Source of the DNA: an uncultured Saprospiraceae bacterium
GTDB taxonomy: Bacteria; Bacteroidota; Bacteroidia; Chitinophagales; Saprospiraceae
Assembly: GCA_937944245.1 (NCBI GenBank)
Contig: CALDYY010000075.1
Span: 1-43,725, forward strand
DNA length: 43,725 nt
Direction of reading: 5' to 3'
In this document: one piece after another, positions 1,937 through 11,323 of the stretch
Numbering within the stretch: the first letter of the stretch is position 1
How the letters are laid out: each line of letters starts with the position of its first letter
Program-made: the position numbers and the translations under genes
Notes under the pieces: model-generated
The model's database searches: none
Seen by the model: the letters and a program-made list of their open reading frames with translations, nothing else
What the model was told of the DNA's origin: nothing

Positions 1937-3115
1937 TCATTCTATGATGAGATTGAATGCTCCTTTAACAAGAAATTCAGCGTTTTCTTCAAAATCTTGA
2001 TAATTCAAAATTTCTATTTTGTTTTCATTGGACAAACCTGCTTTGACTTCTTTTTTCGTAAAAGCGTAACCATTATTCGTTTTATTTTGCAGCACTAAAA
2101 CATAATATCTACCATCTATGTCCACCAACGCATCTTGAGGCAGTGACATTCTGGACAAGGAAGAAGTATAAATATCCGCCTCCACGTACATACCTGGATT
2201 AAAAATACTAGTTAGCTTTTCATCTAATAGGTGTCCATGTACGCCAACTGTTCTTTTTCCCACATCTACTATTTTATTTATTAAAAAAACGGTAGCTTGA
2301 TAAAAGTTTCTTTCATTGTTTTGTATTCTAAATCGTATCGGCTGTCCTACTTTTACTTTTGAAAGGTCTTTCTCAAAAACATTTAACTCTAAATGTAAAT
2401 GCGCTGTGTTCATGATGGAAACCGCAAACTGTGAAGGATTTAAAAAAGTCCCTTTTGAAACGGCCACTTCTGTTACGTATCCACTGATGGGAGAGAGCAC
2501 CTCAATAGTGGTACGAATATTTTGTAATGTCAACGTGTTTGGATTAATATTCATTAAGGATAATTTTTTACCTAGTGCCTCCACTTTGACGCTTGTAACA
2601 GTATAGTCAGATTCCGCTTTTAGATAGTTCTTTTGTGAAGTTACGTTATCCTGTGCTAAATTTTTTTGTCTTTCATAATCTGATTTTAAGTATTCAAGTT
2701 GCCCTTTTGCTTCTAAGAAATCTTGTTGCATTTGCACATAATCAGGGTTTTCAAGAACGAAAAGCACTTGACCTTTTTTTACACTTTGACCTGGCAATAA
2801 CTGTATGTCTTTAACGATGCCTCCAAAATGAGAACTTGCCACAGCATGATTCTCGGGTGGCACATCAAGCATTCCATTTGCTTTTACGACCTCATAAAAT
2901 TCGCCCATTTCTATTTTTCCTAACGCCATATTAGAAGACTGAAATTGGTTTATCGTGAGGTTATAAGTATCCTCTGTTGTACTTTCTGTTGCAGTGTCAT
3001 CAGAAAGTTTGGTCTCCGTATTAGATGAACAAGATGCAAATATCAATAGATAAGCAAAGACCCAATAATAATTGAAAATTTGATTTTTCATTAGATTTAT
3101 GTGCTTATTTTTCAT
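1937..3115 (-). CDS. RND efflux periplasmic adaptor lipoprotein (CzcB/CusB/HlyD family)
   Basis: The protein has 392 residues. A lipoprotein signal with its lipobox at ...IFASC (Cys29) would anchor it in a membrane on the periplasmic side. The barrel-sandwich and lipoyl halves are visible (VASSHFGGIVKDIQLLPGQSVKKGQVLFVLENPDYV, then LSPISGYVTEVAVSKGTFL). They flank a long alpha-hairpin coiled coil at about residues 130-180, followed by a beta-barrel and a membrane-proximal domain. Adaptors of this type link the RND pump to the outer-membrane channel. The ATG at 3115 lies 2 nt after the TAG of the pump gene, so the two are co-transcribed and probably translationally coupled. A second ATG at 3091 is an alternative start. 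No Met-rich or His-rich metal-binding extension is seen. Confidence 0.92.
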   Translation of the reverse strand: MKNKHINLMKNQIFNYYWVFAYLLIFASCSSNTETKLSDDTATESTTEDTYNLTINQFQSSNMALGKIEMGEFYEVVKANGMLDVPPENHAVASSHFGGIVKDIQLLPGQSVKKGQVLFVLENPDYVQMQQDFLEAKGQLEYLKSDYERQKNLAQDNVTSQKNYLKAESDYTVTSVKVEALGKKLSLMNINPNTLTLQNIRTTIEVLSPISGYVTEVAVSKGTFLNPSQFAVSIMNTAHLHLELNVFEKDLSKVKVGQPIRFRIQNNERNFYQATVFLINKIVDVGKRTVGVHGHLLDEKLTSIFNPGMYVEADIYTSSLSRMSLPQDALVDIDGRYYVLVLQNKTNNGYAFTKKEVKAGLSNENKIEILNYQDFEENAEFLVKGAFNLIIE

Positions 3116-3117
3116 TG

Positions 3118-6100
3118 CTAGTTGATTAAATAGTTGGCTTCTAATGCAGTCATATTGTATTGAAAAAGTGCATGGAGATAATTTGTCTCAATGGATTGAG
3201 CATTTTCCAATAGTTGAATGTATTGCAAAAAGTTTATTTCACCATTTCGAAAAGCTCTTTCTGCATGAAATAGCGTTTCCTCAGCAAGTTTCTTTCCTGT
3301 TGATTCGTAGTAATTGAGTCCTTCTTCATATTTCCGCAAATCAGATTGTAGTGCCAGATATGTTGAAATTAATTGTGTTTTGTAGTTCTCATTTTCAGAA
3401 GCTAAAATATAAGCTCCTGTTTTTGAAGCGTTTATTTTAGCATTTTGCGCACCCAACCACAACGGAATGGCGACACCGGCTTGAAATCCCGAGTATGCCC
3501 TTTTTCCATCGCCATTGTTTGTACCTCGAAATATGGAGATGCTTAAATCAGGCAATAATTTTTTCTTTTCTAAGATAATCTCTTTTTCAGAAAGAGCTCT
3601 TGCATCTACAAAGTATCTAAGTACAGGATGAGCAACTGTATCAAGAGGAGCTAGTGCGATGCGTTCAAATGGTTCATCATCTATGATATAATTGGCATCT
3701 GATTGAAGCCATTGATTAAGCAGAATATAAGCTCTTTCTATGCTTTCTGCAATTTGATTGAGCTGAAGTGAAATTTCTTTCTTCTTAGTCTCTGCCGTTA
3801 ATTTTTCCAAATAATTCGACTCCCCTTGCTCAAACCTCCTATTGGCAGAAAACTCGAAAGCGGTGTACAAACTATCTAAATATTGATAGTTGCCGAACAT
3901 CTCTTGCCAGTAAGCAATTTCAAAATATATTTTTAGCACTTCTTTAGTTACTACATATCTGTCAATAGCAAACTGATCATTGGCTAATTGAACCTTGCTT
4001 TCTAATACGCTACGTTGCACACCATATACCGTAGGAAATTGTATAGATTGGCTAATTCCCCAAACGTTAAGTGGTAAATTATTTGGAGCGATATTATTAT
4101 TGTCTCTGTTATAATAAAATTCGGTTTTGTTGATGTCAATAGCACTACCTACGAGTTGCTTGCTTTGCTCAACTCTTTGTGATGATGCTTTCAAACCGCT
4201 GTTGTTCTTCAGTGCAATTTCCACTGCTTGTATAGCACTAATTTTTTGATATTGACTATAACTTAACATAGGAATAAACAGTAAAAGCAACAGTGAAAGT
4301 GTGTTTACAGGTACTCTTACTTTCGGTAAATTTCCTTTTCTATCGAACATAGCATAAAGCACTGGCAGTAGTATAAGTGTAAGTAATGTCGCAGAAATTA
4401 ATCCTCCAACGACCACAGTAGCTAATGGTCTTTGTACTTCTGCACCTGCCGAAGTGGAAATTGCCATAGGCAAAAAGCCCAATGCCGCTGCCGATGCAGT
4501 AAGCAGCACGGGTCTTAATCTATTTTTAGTGCCCATAAGTATCCTTCTATTGATGTTGTTAATGCCATGCGCTTTCAGTTCTTTGAACTCCTCTATTAGT
4601 ACAATTCCGTTCAAAACTGCTATTCCGAAAAGTGCTATGAATCCTACGCCTGCCGAAATACTAAAAGGTAAGTCTCTGAGATAAAGCAATATCACGCCAC
4701 CAATCGCCGACATAGGAATGGCACTATAAATAATTAACGCTTCTTTGATGGAATTAAAGGCAAAGTAAAGTAGTACAAATATCAGTAAAAGAGCTATCGG
4801 TACAGCAATCAGTAATCGTGCTCTAGCTGTTCTCAAATTCTCAAATTGACCGCCATATTCAATAGTGTAGCCAATAGGCAATTTTATTTTTTTATTTATG
4901 ATTGCCTGTATATCCTTCACTACGGATTCCAAGTCTCTGCCCCGAACATTTACACCAACTACTATTCTTCTTTTTGTGTTGTCTCTTGAGATTTTTGCAG
5001 GTCCTTTCGTGTAGCTAATGCTCGCAAATTCAGTGAGGGGTAATTGATTGCCGTTAGAAAGTTGTACCGTAGCGGTTGCTATATCCTCAATACCTTGATG
5101 GTGTCCTTTATCAAAGCGAACGACTAAATCAAATTGCTTTTCGCCTTCAAATACCATTCCGGCTGACATTCCAGCAAACCCCATAGAGATAACATCGTTT
5201 AAATCCTTTACATTGAATCCATATTTTGCAATCTTATGCCTATCATATTTGACAGACATTTGGGGAAGCCCCACCACCTTTTCAACAGTTATATCCGAAG
5301 CACCTTCAATATTCTGAATAGCTTTTTGCACTTCAGTTGCCTTCTTATACAAAAGGTCTAAATCCTCTCCAAAGATTTTTATGGCAAGGTCAGCGCGAAC
5401 TCCAGTGATTAATTCATTGAATCTCATTTCAATAGGTTGGGTAAATTCAAATTCAACTCCTGGTATTTCAGCAATAAGTGCCTCTTTAAATTTATCAGCT
5501 ATTTCGTCTTTATCTTGTGCGGAAACCCATCCCTCTTTTGGTTTCAATTTGATAATAATATCGCTTTCTTCCATAGACATGGGGTCGGTGGGGACTTCCG
5601 CGGCTCCAATTCTGCTTACTACTTGCTCTACTTCGGGGAATCGCTTTAAAATCGTTTCAATTTTTGTTGTAGCCTCTATTGTTTTACTCAAAGAAGTACC
5701 TATTTTCAGTACAGGTTGAATGACAAAATCACCTTCATCTAGTGTAGGTATAAATTCGCCACCCATTTGATTAAAAAGAAAGATTACGAAAAAAAGGAGT
5801 ATCATCGCCAGCCCTAAGACAATTTTTTTTCTTCTTAATGCCCACAACATCATAGGTCTATATCTATTTTCCAAGAATGTTATCAAGCGAGAAGAAATCG
5901 TTTTTTTACTAGCATCTAATGGCTTGATAAATAAAGATGCCATCACTGGAACGTAAGTAAAACACAAAATCATCGCACCAATGAGCGCAAAGCAAAACAC
6001 TAAAGCCATCGGTCTGAACATTTTGCCTTCCACACCAACTAGAGAAAGAATTGGAATAAATACAATGATGATAATAAGTTGCCCAAACACGGCGGAGTTC

Positions 6101-7449
6101 ATCATCTTACTTGTACCATTATAGGTTATTTCATCTATGAGATTTTGTCTTTCTGCCTTTGGCAAAGCCAATAATTGACTGCGTTCGGCGGTAATTTTAA
6201 AAGCAATAAACTCTACAATAATGACTGCTCCGTCTATAATAATTCCAAAGTCAATAGCTCCTAAGCTCATTAGGTTGGCATCCACTCCAAAAATGTACAT
6301 AAGCGACAGCGCAAAGAGCAAACACATAGGTATAACAGAGGCTACCACTAATCCAGAACGGACATTTCCTAGCAGCAGCACAACTACAAAAATGACGATT
6401 AAACAACCTAAAATGAGATTTTCCGCAATGGTGAACGTCGTTTTATTAATGAGTTCACTACGCTCCAAAAATGGATTGATACGAATGCCTGGAGGAAGTG
6501 AGGGGGAAATTTGTGCTACTCTTGCTTTTACAGCATCTATCACTGCTTTAGAGTTGGCTCCTTTTAGCATCATCACCTGACCCAATACTTTTTCGCCTTC
6601 GCCATTGCCTGTAATTGCACCAAAGCGAGTGGCATGCCCAAAGCCAACAGTAGCAACATCTTTAATAAAAATGGGTATTCCATTTCTGTTTTCTATAACG
6701 ATATTTTCAATATCTTCTAGAGAACTAACTAATCCCTCGCCCCGAATAAAATAAGTTTGATTTGTTTTTTCAATGTAGCCGCCACCGGCTACGCTATTGT
6801 TTTTTTCAAGTGCAAAAAACACTTGAGAAAGAGATATATTCAGACTTCTAAGTTTTTCAGGATTGATTGCTACTTCATACTGCTTGAGGTAACCACCCCA
6901 AGTATTCACTTCTACCACGCCCGGAATACCAGAAAGTTGACGTTTTACAATCCAGTCTTGTATCGTTCTTACATCTGATAAGGAATACTCCTTTCGATGA
7001 GTAGAATCCACTTCTATAACATATTGATAAATTTCGCCTAGTCCAGTAGTGATAGGTCCCATGAATGGTTTACCAAATCCCGCAGGAATTTTTTCCTCGG
7101 CTGCTTTTATTTTTTCAGCAATAAGTTGTCTTGGAAGGTAAGTGCCTATTTTATCATCAAAAACTACGGTTACCACAGAAAGTCCAAACTTAGAAATAGA
7201 ACGAATTTCCTTCACATTAGGCAAATTTGCCATTTCTAGCTCTACCGGGTAAGTCAGGAATTTCTCCACATCTTCAGTCGCTAAATTTCTGGATGTGGTA
7301 ATGATTTGAACTTGGTTGTTGGTTATATCGGGTACTGCACCGATGGGAATTTCGGTAAGAGAATATACACCAAACCCAATAATTCCAAGTGAAAACAGAA
7401 GTACAATTAACTTATGGCGAGTGCTGTATTGTATAATCCTATCTAACAT
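3118..7449 (-). CDS. czcA: CzcA-type heavy-metal RND pump fused to a TolC-family channel
   Basis: From the ATG at 7449 (MLDRIIQYS, the usual family start) the protein has 1443 residues. An in-frame extension to 7479 begins with TTG inside a promoter box and is unlikely; an ATG at 7461 is possible. Residues 1 to about 1040 are a complete HME-RND pump with 12 membrane helices and two large periplasmic loops. The fourth helix reads DFGIIIDGAVIIVE with D400, D406 and E413, which correspond to the CzcA proton-relay residues. The DFGx3DGA motif is known from Co/Zn/Cd-type pumps rather than Cu/Ag-type CusA. At about 1049-1066 comes a second hydrophobic, signal-peptide-like stretch (LSLLLLLFIPMLSYSQ), followed by about 375 residues of TolC/OMF fold. 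Bacteroidota commonly carry this fusion. The adaptor gene follows directly. Confidence 0.93.
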   Translation of the reverse strand: MLDRIIQYSTRHKLIVLLFSLGIIGFGVYSLTEIPIGAVPDITNNQVQIITTSRNLATEDVEKFLTYPVELEMANLPNVKEIRSISKFGLSVVTVVFDDKIGTYLPRQLIAEKIKAAEEKIPAGFGKPFMGPITTGLGEIYQYVIEVDSTHRKEYSLSDVRTIQDWIVKRQLSGIPGVVEVNTWGGYLKQYEVAINPEKLRSLNISLSQVFFALEKNNSVAGGGYIEKTNQTYFIRGEGLVSSLEDIENIVIENRNGIPIFIKDVATVGFGHATRFGAITGNGEGEKVLGQVMMLKGANSKAVIDAVKARVAQISPSLPPGIRINPFLERSELINKTTFTIAENLILGCLIVIFVVVLLLGNVRSGLVVASVIPMCLLFALSLMYIFGVDANLMSLGAIDFGIIIDGAVIIVEFIAFKITAERSQLLALPKAERQNLIDEITYNGTSKMMNSAVFGQLIIIIVFIPILSLVGVEGKMFRPMALVFCFALIGAMILCFTYVPVMASLFIKPLDASKKTISSRLITFLENRYRPMMLWALRRKKIVLGLAMILLFFVIFLFNQMGGEFIPTLDEGDFVIQPVLKIGTSLSKTIEATTKIETILKRFPEVEQVVSRIGAAEVPTDPMSMEESDIIIKLKPKEGWVSAQDKDEIADKFKEALIAEIPGVEFEFTQPIEMRFNELITGVRADLAIKIFGEDLDLLYKKATEVQKAIQNIEGASDITVEKVVGLPQMSVKYDRHKIAKYGFNVKDLNDVISMGFAGMSAGMVFEGEKQFDLVVRFDKGHHQGIEDIATATVQLSNGNQLPLTEFASISYTKGPAKISRDNTKRRIVVGVNVRGRDLESVVKDIQAIINKKIKLPIGYTIEYGGQFENLRTARARLLIAVPIALLLIFVLLYFAFNSIKEALIIYSAIPMSAIGGVILLYLRDLPFSISAGVGFIALFGIAVLNGIVLIEEFKELKAHGINNINRRILMGTKNRLRPVLLTASAAALGFLPMAISTSAGAEVQRPLATVVVGGLISATLLTLILLPVLYAMFDRKGNLPKVRVPVNTLSLLLLLFIPMLSYSQYQKISAIQAVEIALKNNSGLKASSQRVEQSKQLVGSAIDINKTEFYYNRDNNNIAPNNLPLNVWGISQSIQFPTVYGVQRSVLESKVQLANDQFAIDRYVVTKEVLKIYFEIAYWQEMFGNYQYLDSLYTAFEFSANRRFEQGESNYLEKLTAETKKKEISLQLNQIAESIERAYILLNQWLQSDANYIIDDEPFERIALAPLDTVAHPVLRYFVDARALSEKEIILEKKKLLPDLSISIFRGTNNGDGKRAYSGFQAGVAIPLWLGAQNAKINASKTGAYILASENENYKTQLISTYLALQSDLRKYEEGLNYYESTGKKLAEETLFHAERAFRNGEINFLQYIQLLENAQSIETNYLHALFQYNMTALEANYLIN

Positions 7450-7476
7450 TAATAGTGGCATTTTATAATGACACAC

Positions 7477-7484
7477 CAAAGGTA
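7477..7484 (-). promoter_or_regulatory. -7 box (TACCTTTG) of the czcA promoter
   Basis: On the minus strand this octamer matches TAnnTTTG exactly, and it lies 27 nt before the chosen ATG. It sits exactly 11 bp downstream of a four-part direct-repeat operator (7496-7533). It also overlaps the TTG of the longer reading frame, which argues for the shorter protein. Confidence 0.65.
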
Positions 7485-7495
7485 AAGGGGATATG

Positions 7496-7533
7496 CTAAT
7501 ACTTTTATCAACCTTTTCTTAAGATTGGCTTAA
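7496..7533 (-). promoter_or_regulatory. Four-repeat operator with 11-bp period upstream of czcA
   Basis: Read on the minus strand, half-sites TTAAG (7529-7533), TTAAG (7518-7522), TTGAT (7507-7511) and ATTAG (7496-7500) are each separated by 6 bp, an 11-bp period. The first two are perfect and the last two degenerate. Eleven bases separate the last half-site from the -7 box. The same layout stands upstream of the response-regulator gene. Tandem sites at about 10-11 bp are typical of OmpR-family regulators, so this is probably the binding site of the regulator encoded at 9645-10313 (inference). Confidence 0.65.
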
Positions 7534-7537
7534 AATT

Positions 7538-8245
7538 TTAGCTAAGACTTACACCAAACAAATACCCCACTAAAGCCGTTAAGCCCATTGCCATAGTACC
7601 CCAAAAAGTAATACGAAAAACAGCTTTCCCTATTTTTGAACCTCCTATTTTAGCAGATAGAACCCCAAGAATTATTAAAAAAAAAATGGCAAATATGTAT
7701 AGGTAGTATTCCATGTATTGGATAGGCATAAGTAAGGTAACAAGTAAAGGGAGTAATCCACCGGTACTAAAGGATACCCCTGATGCCCAAGCAGCTTGAA
7801 ATGGTTTGGCTTGATTAACTTCGTTAATACCCAATTCATCTCTTATGTGTGCCTCTAAGGCGTTATGGGCTGTAAGTTCTTTGGCAACAAGCATAGCTGT
7901 TTCCTTTTTCAATCCACGCTTTTCATAGATTTCAGCAAGTTTATGCAACTCTAATTCTGGCATTTCTCCCAACTCTATTTTTTCTCGCTCAATATCAGCC
8001 GTCTCAACATCAGTTTGAGAACTAACAGATACATATTCACCTGCCGCCATAGACAATGCTCCAGCAACTAAACCAGCGAGTGTGGCTAATACAATAGCCT
8101 CTCTTGAATCACTAGCAACAGCTACACCAATAGCTAAACTAGCAGTAGAGAGAATACCGTCATTAGCACCCAAAACCGCAGCTCTCAACCAATTACTTCT
8201 ATATATATAATGATTCTCTAAGTAATTGTCTAGTGTATTTTCCAT
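7538..8245 (-). CDS. VIT1/CCC1-family divalent metal transporter
   Basis: The 235-residue protein carries family signatures: NWLRAAVLGANDGILSTASL (GANDGI at residues 26-31), AGEYVSVSSQTDVE, and a charged cytoplasmic helical insert with many Glu (about residues 80-135). That insert includes EREKIELGEMPELEL and KELTAHNALEAHIRDE. Helices are predicted at about 24-45, 50-75, 145-170, 175-195 and 205-230. Family members move Fe2+ and/or Mn2+ across membranes. The glutamate-rich insert is where the plant VIT1 structure binds metal. The gene lies 32 bp downstream of the sensor kinase gene, probably in the same transcript, and just upstream of the pump promoter. That context supports a role in metal homeostasis; the transported ion is not shown by sequence. 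Confidence 0.9.
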   Translation of the reverse strand: MENTLDNYLENHYIYRSNWLRAAVLGANDGILSTASLAIGVAVASDSREAIVLATLAGLVAGALSMAAGEYVSVSSQTDVETADIEREKIELGEMPELELHKLAEIYEKRGLKKETAMLVAKELTAHNALEAHIRDELGINEVNQAKPFQAAWASGVSFSTGGLLPLLVTLLMPIQYMEYYLYIFAIFFLIILGVLSAKIGGSKIGKAVFRITFWGTMAMGLTALVGYLFGVSLS

Positions 8246-8277
8246 TTTTTGTTTGCTAATTTATGACTTTTATGAAT

Positions 8278-9648
8278 CTAAAATATAACAGTAACATGAG
8301 TTCCTTGACCGTAAGTGCTGATAATTCTTAGCTCCGCTTGGATAGCATCTACACATTTTTTTGTAATAGAGAGTCCTAGACCATTACCATGAATATGTTT
8401 ATGATTCAAGGCATCAGAGCGATAAAAACTATTATAAATATGAGTTAAGTCTTCTTGCTTGATTCCTATTCCTTCGTCTTTGATGGTACAAGCAATTCGG
8501 TTGCCAATCAATTTTGTACTTATATTTATAACTCCGTCATTATCAGAATATTTAATGGAATTACTCAAGATATTATCAAATATAATACCGCTATAAAAAC
8601 AAGGTACCAGTGCTTTGTCTGCTTGATTAAATTCGAGATTTATCTTTAAATTCTTCTCTGTAATTTGATTTTTAAAATGTGATATTGATTCTTCAATAAT
8701 TGTAGGAAGTGAACCTAAAGTATTATTTCTTTTGTTAGGCGAAGTTTCTAGGCGTGCCAGAAGTAGGAGTTGCTCCAAAAGGGCGGTCATTCTATCAATT
8801 TCTTTTAGGCTATACCGAATCTTTTCTTCATATTCTTGTTGGGTTCTAGGTTTTCTAATCAGCACTTCTAAAGTACCTCTGAGTGTAGCAAGAGGTGTTC
8901 TAAGTTCATGTGAAGCATCAGAAGTAAATTGTTTTTCTCTTTCGATGGCTTTTTCAATACGTTCTATTAAGGCATTAAAATTTGAAGAAAGCGCATAAAT
9001 TTCATCCTGATTTTGTGGTAATCTGACACGTTCTTTTAAATTATTCCTAGTGATTCTAGTAATCGTATTTGTCATTTCTTGAATAGGGATTATGCTTCTT
9101 CCTGCTAGGAAACGCGAGACGAAATATAATCCAATCAATACTATGAAATAAGATACAATAAGTACACTTTTTAATTTTAAAATCACCGAAGAAGCAGATT
9201 CGGAAGACATAGCCGCTAGAATATATCCCATTATTTTTCCATTTTCATAAATGGGTAATTGTATTTGCCTTATTGTTCTATTATTGATAGTAGTATTAAA
9301 ATATCCTTCAAATCCAGATGTTTTAAATGGTAAATGGTTCTCCTTTAAGTTTGGGGATTTATCCATTAAGTTACCTTGATTATCAATTAGCTGAATAAAA
9401 ACAGGGTTTACTTGTACTTCACGGTGTTCGCGTTCCTCCCACACTGCTTTATTGACAAAATGAATGCTGTCGCCAATAATTTCTATTTCCGTCATGTGTT
9501 TTTTAGCTTCGTGGTATAAATCGCTATCTAAACTTCTCCACACTGCGCCTTTCATTATAAAAAAGATGATGCCAAACACAGTAGCCATGATGATGGCTGT
9601 TGCCATCATGTAATGAAAGGCAATTCTACTTTTAAAACTTAAGCTCAT
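8278..9648 (-). CDS. Two-component sensor histidine kinase (HAMP, HisKA, HATPase)
   Basis: The protein has 456 residues. Transmembrane helices lie at about 12-33 and 158-180. They enclose a periplasmic sensor domain of about 125 residues, which has several His and acidic residues (HEAKKHMTE, WEEREHRE) that could bind metal (inference). A HAMP domain (about 180-235) and HisKA domain follow, with the phospho-acceptor His247 in ASHELRTPLATL. The ATPase domain has N box FDNILSNSIKYS, G1 DEGIGI and G2 GNGLGLSI. The gene overlaps the response regulator by 4 bases (ATGA), so they form one operon. Its position upstream of a metal transporter and an RND metal pump suggests a CusS/CzcS-like metal sensor. 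The ligand is an inference from context. Confidence 0.93.
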   Translation of the reverse strand: MSLSFKSRIAFHYMMATAIIMATVFGIIFFIMKGAVWRSLDSDLYHEAKKHMTEIEIIGDSIHFVNKAVWEEREHREVQVNPVFIQLIDNQGNLMDKSPNLKENHLPFKTSGFEGYFNTTINNRTIRQIQLPIYENGKIMGYILAAMSSESASSVILKLKSVLIVSYFIVLIGLYFVSRFLAGRSIIPIQEMTNTITRITRNNLKERVRLPQNQDEIYALSSNFNALIERIEKAIEREKQFTSDASHELRTPLATLRGTLEVLIRKPRTQQEYEEKIRYSLKEIDRMTALLEQLLLLARLETSPNKRNNTLGSLPTIIEESISHFKNQITEKNLKINLEFNQADKALVPCFYSGIIFDNILSNSIKYSDNDGVINISTKLIGNRIACTIKDEGIGIKQEDLTHIYNSFYRSDALNHKHIHGNGLGLSITKKCVDAIQAELRIISTYGQGTHVTVIF

Positions 9649-10313
9649 ATTTCTTTAGCGATATAGCCCACTCCACGAACCGTTTGAATGTAATTTTCTT
9701 CCTCTGATAAGGAAAGTTTTTTCCTCAATGCGTTGATATAGACATCTATTACACTTGTATTGTAGTCGAAGTGGATGTCCCATACACTTTCTATAATCCT
9801 AGTTCTTCTACATACCTTGCCTTTGTTGCGCATAAGGTACTCCAATAATGCAAATTCTTTTTGGGTCAAACTAATTTCCTGCTCTTCTCTAAAAACTTGA
9901 TGCGTTTCTGTGTTTAGTGTGATATTTCCCAATGTGAACACTGCGTGAACACCTGATTTTGGTCTTAGTTGTACTTTAATTCGCTCTAGTAGTTCTTCAA
10001 AATGAAAGGGCTTTTTGATGTAGTCGTTTGCGCCTGATTGTAAACCAAAAATGGTTTCGTCAAGCGTATCCTTAGCCGTTAGAAAAATGATTGGCGTTTC
10101 GTAAGATTCTTTTCTAAATTGTCTGCAAATCTCAACACCACTCAATCCTGGAAGCATCCAATCTAATAATAGCAAATCATATTCTCCAGATAAAGCAAGT
10201 TGTAATCCTTTTTTTCCTTCCTCCGCTACATCCACTGCAAAGCATTCTTCCTCTAATCCTTGTTTGAGAAAGGCAGCAATACCCTGTTCGTCTTCTACTA
10301 TTAATATTTTCAT
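9645..10313 (-). CDS. OmpR/PhoB-family response regulator
   Basis: The protein has 222 residues. The receiver domain has E7 and D8, the phosphoacceptor D51 (LLLLDWMLPG), T79 and K101 (YIKKPF). The C-terminal winged-helix domain ends with the usual VIDVYINALRKKL and TVRGVGY signatures. Proteins of this type bind tandem direct repeats and activate promoters when phosphorylated by the partner kinase, which here overlaps by 4 bases. The gene is preceded by four 11-bp-spaced half-sites that also occur before the pump gene, so it probably regulates itself and the pump. The ATG at 10313 gives the canonical MKILIVEDE start. A -7-like box ends only 4 nt upstream, so the transcript may have almost no leader. 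Confidence 0.94.
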   Translation of the reverse strand: MKILIVEDEQGIAAFLKQGLEEECFAVDVAEEGKKGLQLALSGEYDLLLLDWMLPGLSGVEICRQFRKESYETPIIFLTAKDTLDETIFGLQSGANDYIKKPFHFEELLERIKVQLRPKSGVHAVFTLGNITLNTETHQVFREEQEISLTQKEFALLEYLMRNKGKVCRRTRIIESVWDIHFDYNTSVIDVYINALRKKLSLSEEENYIQTVRGVGYIAKEI

Positions 10314-10317
10314 TCCT

Positions 10318-10325
10318 CAAATGTC
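10318..10325 (-). promoter_or_regulatory. Near-consensus -7 box (GACATTTG) before the response regulator
   Basis: One base differs from TAnnTTTG. It lies exactly 11 bp from the last half-site of the 11-bp-period array, the same spacing as at the czcA promoter. Only 4 nt separate it from the ATG, which would imply a leaderless or nearly leaderless mRNA. Confidence 0.45.
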
Positions 10326-10336
10326 CATAATTCCCA

Positions 10337-10374
10337 TTTAATCTTTCATTAAAGCATTCTTAAGATTTACTTAA
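10337..10374 (-). promoter_or_regulatory. Four-repeat operator with 11-bp period upstream of the response regulator
   Basis: On the minus strand, half-sites TTAAG (10370-10374), TTAAG (10359-10363), TTAAT (10348-10352) and TTAAA (10337-10341) are separated by 6 bp each. All four start with TTAA. The array has the same length and the same 11-bp distance to the -7 box as the one before czcA. Autoregulation by the encoded OmpR-type protein is the simplest reading. Confidence 0.65.
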
Positions 10375-10432
10375 TTTTTTGACTTATTGTCAATAGGACT
10401 TTTAGATGTACTTTATTGAATGCAAAACATAT

Positions 10433-11323
10433 CTATTTGATATTTAATTGAACGACTTGATTTGGATACTTTTGCATCAGATGCTCCATATTTTTCGTAA
10501 TTCCTAAAAAAAAACCACCACCACCAGCGCCACATAACTTTAAGCGATGCTCCTCACCACTCAACATAGTTTCCCAAACAGGTCGGATGCTATTTGGAAT
10601 CATCGGCTGAAAATATTGTAATTGAAAAATACTAATCTGTTCTAACGCAATAAAAAGTTGCTCAAAATCATTTTGCAGCAAAGTTGTTACAGCAGTATCT
10701 ACTGCGGGCAATAAAGACTGTTGCACTTTTTCTAAATACTTCTTTTGTTCACATTGTGCCATGAACCAATTAACCAACTCTCCTGTCTGCCGATTTTTCT
10801 GAGCATCAAATAAAAAGAGTTCACCTAAATTGGACTTCGTCGAAGGCACTTCTGCGGTTTGAATAAATTGGTTTTTAATGAGTACCGCTTTGTTGAGATA
10901 ACAAATTAAAGGGTCAAATCCAGAACTTGTGCCATGAAAGTGGCTTTCTAATTGAGCAAATATCAATTTCAATTTCGCTAAATCACTTATTTTTTCTTTG
11001 GCAAAAACATCATAAATACCAGCAATTAAAGCACCAGAACTTCCTAAGCCATAACCCAATGGAATATTGGATTCAAACGATAGTCCTTGTTTAAGCATTT
11101 GCTGAAATGCTACTAAATCCAACTTTGCCAAGAGCTTTTCGTCTTGCTCCAACTGAACTAAATACTCAAAAAAATGGACTAAATGGTGGTGAAAATTATT
11201 TTTTGATAATTTCCATTTCCCATAAAAGCGTAGCGTAGGAATAGCTAATGCACTACCTCCTTTTAAAACAGAATGCTCTCCAAATAGCAATATTTTTGAT
11301 GGATAAATTTGATTGAATTTCAT
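10433..11323 (-). CDS. GHMP-family kinase, mevalonate-kinase-like
   Basis: The protein has 296 residues. The GHMP motifs are an N-terminal KILLFGEHSVLKGGSALA, the ATP-binding PLGYGLGSSGA loop at residues 88-98, and a C-terminal glycine-rich CGAGGGGFF at about 264-272. The segment HGTSSGFDPLICYL resembles the SG-x-D region of mevalonate kinases and related phosphorylating enzymes. Mevalonate kinase phosphorylates mevalonate in the cytoplasm during isoprenoid synthesis. No other mevalonate-pathway gene is in the window, so the exact substrate is less certain than the family. It is divergent from the aldehyde dehydrogenase gene. Confidence 0.8.
   Translation of the reverse strand: MKFNQIYPSKILLFGEHSVLKGGSALAIPTLRFYGKWKLSKNNFHHHLVHFFEYLVQLEQDEKLLAKLDLVAFQQMLKQGLSFESNIPLGYGLGSSGALIAGIYDVFAKEKISDLAKLKLIFAQLESHFHGTSSGFDPLICYLNKAVLIKNQFIQTAEVPSTKSNLGELFLFDAQKNRQTGELVNWFMAQCEQKKYLEKVQQSLLPAVDTAVTTLLQNDFEQLFIALEQISIFQLQYFQPMIPNSIRPVWETMLSGEEHRLKLCGAGGGGFFLGITKNMEHLMQKYPNQVVQLNIK

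Follow-up and report, generated by a model that had tools for sequence, protein, structure and literature searches.

Matching TTAAG arrays before an OmpR-family regulator gene and a CzcA-type pump gene in a Saprospiraceae bacterium: probable operators of the adjacent regulator

In an uncultured Saprospiraceae bacterium, a response-regulator gene and a metal-pump gene are preceded by the same arrangement of TTAAG repeats. Which protein reads these repeats, and to what effect? The window analysed here is a whole stretch of 43,725 nucleotides (CALDYY010000075.1, contig C75 of the 3.80-Mb genome), with a guanine-cytosine content of 37.9%. The initial annotation had described two arrays on the minus strand, each of four 5-bp half-sites 6 bp apart and each beginning with two TTAAG units. 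This description is correct to the base. All the gaps between half-sites are 6 bp, giving an 11-bp period, and at both promoters the last half-site stands exactly 11 bp from a -7 box, as had also been claimed. The box is an exact TAnnTTTG before the pump and carries one mismatch before the regulator. We consider it probable, at about 0.86, that both arrays are operators of the adjacent OmpR/PhoB-family regulator (9645-10313), controlling its own operon and the pump operon. The elements are as follows.

10337..10374, minus strand: putative four-half-site operator of the regulator operon, from the sequence and the core pair in orthologs; half-sites TTAAG (10374-10370), TTAAG (10363-10359), TTAAT (10352-10348) and TTAAA (10341-10337).
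10318..10325, minus strand: predicted -7 box of the regulator promoter, GACATTTG, placed by its spacing and by the -12 to -5 box register given in PMC9723704.
7496..7533, minus strand: putative four-half-site operator of the pump operon, from the sequence and the core pair in relatives; half-sites TTAAG (7533-7529), TTAAG (7522-7518), TTGAT (7511-7507) and ATTAG (7500-7496).
7477..7484, minus strand: predicted -7 box of the pump promoter, TACCTTTG, with a predicted +1 at 7472 and a leader of 23 nucleotides.

Chance likeness and conservation of the arrays

The occurrence of the motif in the genome was first compared with that of its reversed control. The core pair TTAAG-N6-TTAAG is found in 8 copies against 21 for the reversed pattern, so that the core pair cannot by itself be called rare. 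The extended form TTAAGNNAATCTTAAGAA occurs exactly twice genome-wide, with no match for its reversed control. Both copies are in the window, and the genome search thus shows the extended motif to be confined to this locus and not scattered. Copies of the extended motif with two mismatches seem to be background (10, as compared to 11 reversed-control matches in all). Of the remaining six core-pair sites, L002 and L005 fall within open frames and the other four in between. None has the window's array together with its spacing to the -7 box, and we took all six as chance matches. At L001, a TACATTTG box stands 21 bp after a TTAAT pair running in the opposite sense. A scan for sigma-70 promoters, which does not cover those of Bacteroidota, gave signals at background.

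The orthologs used were the best 80 of 196 regulator relatives found in named genomes, a close set at 75-88% identity. One of them (L097), whose regulator starts at base 4 and leaves no upstream sequence, was dropped from the upstream counts. Of the 79 usable orthologs, 66 carry the core pair in the 250 bp before the regulator gene, or 67 of 80 with the window included. When gaps of 0 to 15 bp between two TTAAG units were compared, the gap of 6 bp alone was enriched (67/80), every other gap being present in at most 2 of 80. A CzcA N-terminus was identified downstream of the regulator in 66 of the 79 ortholog loci, those without a usable one being left out of the pump set. The core pair lies directly upstream of CzcA in 65 of these 66 relatives.

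Conservation is incomplete before the regulator, which weighs against the operator reading: 13 of the 80 upstream regions have no exact pair within 250 bp. Three of these (L051, L090, L099) depart from the pair by a single mismatch and keep it in its usual position. L074 also differs by one base, but its pair is 104 bp up; the other nine show at least three mismatches. A site is present further up in six of the 13 (L046, L101 at 308 bp, L105, L108, L112 and L117). In all of these six except L101, other genes on its strand run ahead of the regulator and the site precedes the first of them. This leaves L047, L053, L074 and L116 as exceptions. In four Algoriphagus loci (L105:4933, L108:4925, L112:4916, L117:2158), two genes lie ahead of the regulator on its strand, one for a glycosyltransferase and the other about 750 codons long, and the site stands before the first of the two.

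The genome counts leave room for the arrays being a chance or low-complexity likeness in an AT-rich genome, with a core pair present eight times and a reversed pattern commoner still. This explanation is nevertheless removed by the conservation in the regulator and pump promoters of relatives, not by the core-pair counts. The arrays are kept, in register, in dozens of relatives and the motif co-occurs with the regulator across genomes. We therefore regard chance as having next to no likelihood, and the view of the initial annotation that two such arrays are unlikely to arise by chance is borne out.

The length of the array was examined by scoring the mean match to TTAAG at each of 44 downstream offsets; the first pair was the anchor used to pick the promoters. 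Non-redundant sets of 41 regulator and 44 pump promoters were used. Offsets 22 and 33 were the top two of the 44 in both sets, and none of 1000 shuffles reached either, while offset 44 scored below the mean. The array therefore has four units. In relatives the first pair hardly varies, whereas half-sites 3 and 4 are degenerate, reading YTAAT and TTAA before the regulator and TT(T/G)AG and YTTAG before the pump. As the G of units 3 and 4 is conserved in 86% and 89% of pump promoters, all four half-sites point towards the promoter, even though TTAA is palindromic.

The protein that binds the arrays

All the genes of the locus are on the minus strand.

9645..10313, minus strand: OmpR/PhoB-family response regulator, 222 amino acids (P0001); Pfam Response_reg PF00072 and Trans_reg_C PF00486, above cut-off.
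8278..9648, minus strand: sensor histidine kinase, 456 amino acids (P0003), by Pfam.
7538..8245, minus strand: VIT1-family membrane protein (P0004), by Pfam VIT1; judged by its position, probably the third gene of the regulator operon.
3118..7449, minus strand: CzcA/CusA-type resistance-nodulation-division (RND) pump fused to a TolC-like outer-membrane factor, 1443 amino acids (P0006); TIGR00914, Pfam ACR_tran and OEP.
1937..3115, minus strand: CzcB-like periplasmic adaptor, 392 amino acids (P0005), by Pfam HlyD_D23.

The pump protein scores 1126.9 bits against the NCBIfam model TIGR00914 (cut-off 701.45), and of 63 relatives, 62 likewise have CzcA and TolC in one open frame. Because the codon aligned to 7449 is ATG in all 63 relatives examined, the pump most likely starts there rather than at 7479 or 7461. 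In most pump-bearing relatives the gene order is regulator, kinase, in some VIT1 or another gene, then the site, CzcA, TolC and CzcB. Rfam gave no match within 7200-10700. In the periplasmic part of the kinase, residues E47, H51, W70, E72, E74, H75, N81 and P82, among others, are conserved in at least 95% of 81 sequences. These acid and histidine clusters suggest a candidate metal site; CzcS and PmrB use such residues.

The distribution of the motif across genomes follows that of close homologs of the regulator. Among 60 genomes of kin, including its own, TTAAGNNAATCTTAAGAA was found in three, exactly those having a regulator of at least 78% identity, and the reversed control in none. Among 395 Bacteroidota genomes, again including its own, TTAAGNNAATCTTAAGRA was found in 17, with five reversed-control matches. 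The strict motif is present in 6 of 6 genomes having a regulator of at least 70% identity as compared to 11 of 389 others (Fisher p = 2e-9), and in 7 of 10 at 330 bits or more as compared to 10 of 385 (p = 8e-9). These p-values, like those below, ignore shared ancestry. The identity cuts of 70% and 65% and the 330-bit cut were set after the data had been seen, and all three are given.

Several observations weigh against assigning the arrays to this regulator. With looser cuts the association weakens, to 7 of 19 genomes versus 10 of 376 at 65% identity or more (p = 3e-6) and to 14 of 115 versus 3 of 280 at E<=1e-70 (p = 5e-6). Since most distant homologs are without the strict motif, it belongs to the close clade. 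One paralogous regulator (L013, 48% identity) has a looser TTAA-N7-TTAA upstream. Moreover, five genomes of one genus (g72), whose regulators are only 56-58% identical to that of the window, carry the motif away from the regulator gene, in front of a TonB-type receptor. In these loci (L153-L157) the TTAAG array stands 125-128 bp before the receptor gene, as identified by Pfam on one example.

The g72 genomes would suit operators of another transcription factor acting from outside the locus, be it a different regulator of the OmpR family or a metal sensor that is not linked to it; at E<=1e-30, the regulator has five additional matches in the genome. On the other hand, the strict motif tracks close homologs of the adjacent regulator across genomes, it precedes the regulator gene itself, and both its genomic copies are at this locus. 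The site is also absent upstream of all 23 other OmpR-family regulators considered (26 matches, less L021, L025 and L033, which lie near contig ends), and it is absent at the loci of other RND matches in this genome (L179-L182). We consider another factor unlikely. Overall, conservation, the restriction of the two copies to the locus and the co-occurrence with close homologs support the proposal of the initial annotation that the product of 9645-10313 would act through these arrays on itself and on the pump. Its premise, that OmpR-family proteins bind tandem repeats of about 10-11 bp, agrees with the 11-bp direct repeats known for the OmpR/PhoB mode in the published descriptions of PmrA and CiaR.

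Core promoter layout and a predicted leaderless mRNA

Among relatives, 58 of 66 regulator promoters and 58 of 65 pump promoters have a TTTG whose first base is at offset 51-53. An exact TAnnTTTG is present in 48 of the 65 pump promoters. It is present in only 6 of the 66 regulator promoters, a point against the preferred reading. According to PMC9723704, flavobacterial sigma-A promoters carry TAnnTTTG at -12 to -5, and in that register the array spans about -60 to -23. No TTG stands out at -33 in column counts of the regulator and pump promoters. By analogy with OmpR/PhoB proteins, this layout would be that of an activator taking the place of the upstream promoter element (class II).

Position alone is no proof of activation, because the last half-site overlaps the place of a -33 element. 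The same overlap would fit a repressor that, bound to the four half-sites at about -60 to -23, keeps RNA polymerase off the promoter until its binding is relieved by metal. However, the array stops 11 bp short of the -7 box, leaving the box and the start site uncovered, and the lack of a prominent TTG at -33 is expected of an activator-dependent promoter. CiaR, too, activates from a similar spacing (PMC3091779). Repression is therefore quite improbable in our view, slightly more so than action by another factor.

The preferred reading, binding of the adjacent regulator as an activator, would proceed as follows. The kinase would sense a periplasmic transition metal and phosphorylate the regulator, which may bind the four half-sites as two head-to-tail dimers. 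One dimer would fill the strong distal pair and help the second onto the weak proximal pair. The second dimer could then replace the missing -33 element and recruit sigma-A RNA polymerase. Positive autoregulation of the regulator-kinase-VIT1 genes and induction of CzcA-TolC-CzcB would be the outcome.

The distance between the box and the start codon distinguishes the two promoters. The G of TTTG is separated from the ATG by exactly 4 nucleotides in 54 of 67 regulator promoters, including that of the window (10313-10325, minus strand). The remaining promoters include one with 3 nucleotides, eight of the 67 with no TTTG in register and four with gaps of 18-45. With the 4-nucleotide spacing, +1 would fall on the A of the ATG (10313 in the window). 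The regulator mRNA is thus predicted to be leaderless as well as autoregulated. The pump start codon lies 20-29 nucleotides after the -7 box in 61 of 63 cases, and TTTG-N4-ATG was found in none of the 23 other OmpR-family regulators. For comparison, leaderless transcripts make up 5.5% of mapped mRNAs in Flavobacterium psychrophilum, according to PMC9723704.

Additional sites were found in relatives. They precede genes for DUF2231 membrane proteins, a rubrerythrin protein, a haem-binding-domain protein and a Rieske protein (Pfam, one example each). Another precedes the gene of a 364-residue VIT1 protein with a long N-terminal part, which looks ferritin-like (Pfam gave VIT1 only, on one example). 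At L079:10139, L081:10078 and L085:6375, the site stands before this 364-residue VIT1 gene directly after the kinase gene, in the usual place of the pump; no CzcA was found in the stretch covered at these three loci.

A broader proposal, whose chances we put at about even, has two parts taken together. In the first, the regulator operator, the -7 box and the start codon would form one rigid unit, conserved over several Bacteroidota families and giving a leaderless mRNA from the A of the AUG, with an ordinary leader for the pump. In the second, the TTAAG array would mark an undescribed metal stress regulon, perhaps for iron or manganese. Its members would include, in some lineages, VIT1-type transporters, rubrerythrin lipoproteins, DUF2231 proteins and proteins that bind haem; a TonB receptor may belong to it in one genus.

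Likeness to known systems and meaning

One close resemblance is to CiaR of streptococci. According to PMC3091779, CiaR binds TTTAAG-N5-TTTAAG, revised to NTTAAG-N5-TTTAAG; the distance to the -10 box used in searching for it was ten. The TTAAG core, the 11-bp period, the orientation and a spacing of roughly ten bases from the last half-site to the core promoter box are shared with the arrays of the window. The recognition helix is also similar, VVEVYVSKVRKKL in CiaR as compared to VIDVYINALRKKL here (7 of 13 identical, by eye), this quoted helix being the only part of the proteins compared. However, CiaR uses two half-sites where four are found here, the second half-site reads CTTAAG in the window, as it usually does in relatives, and phylum, core promoter and regulon differ. 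There is no CiaR model among the 25 NCBIfam matches listed for the regulator.

The PmrA/BasR box of gamma-proteobacteria, HTTAAD-N5-HTTAAD, is bound by a head-to-tail OmpR-family dimer (PMC3973317 and PMC10927774). The first pairs of the window's arrays, ATTAAG-N5-CTTAAG and TTTAAG-N5-CTTAAG, fit this consensus, although here there are four half-sites and the target is a metal pump. The regulator falls short of the PmrA equivalog model NF007928 (168 bits for a cut-off of 330). Its best-scoring NCBIfam model is TIGR01387, which covers CzcR, SilR, CopR and CusR, and like these it adjoins a CzcA/CusA pump and a sensor kinase; its score is nevertheless under the curated cut-off (231.9 versus 279.2 bits). 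Since both cut-offs are failed, we describe the regulator as working like CiaR and PmrA without identifying it as one of them. CusR and CopR recognise inverted sites of the TGACA type instead of direct TTAAG repeats. At class II promoters of PhoB, the pho box consists of 11-bp direct repeats, sometimes four, that replace the upstream promoter element. The arrays resemble the pho box in these repeats and in their place, and differ from it in half-site (TGTCA for PhoB) and in regulon, that of PhoB being the phosphate regulon.

Overall, the type of operator is already known. What is newly seen is the predicted leaderless regulator promoter and the sites before further genes in some relatives. In the open-licence literature searched by title and abstract, no account of this operator in Bacteroidota was apparent among the matches listed. 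With an operator resolved to the base and common to dozens of relatives, the regulon of a widespread metal-resistance two-component system can be predicted; the operator could also yield a portable metal-inducible promoter for the phylum. The regulator, apparently leaderless as well as autoregulated, makes a clean example of that combination.

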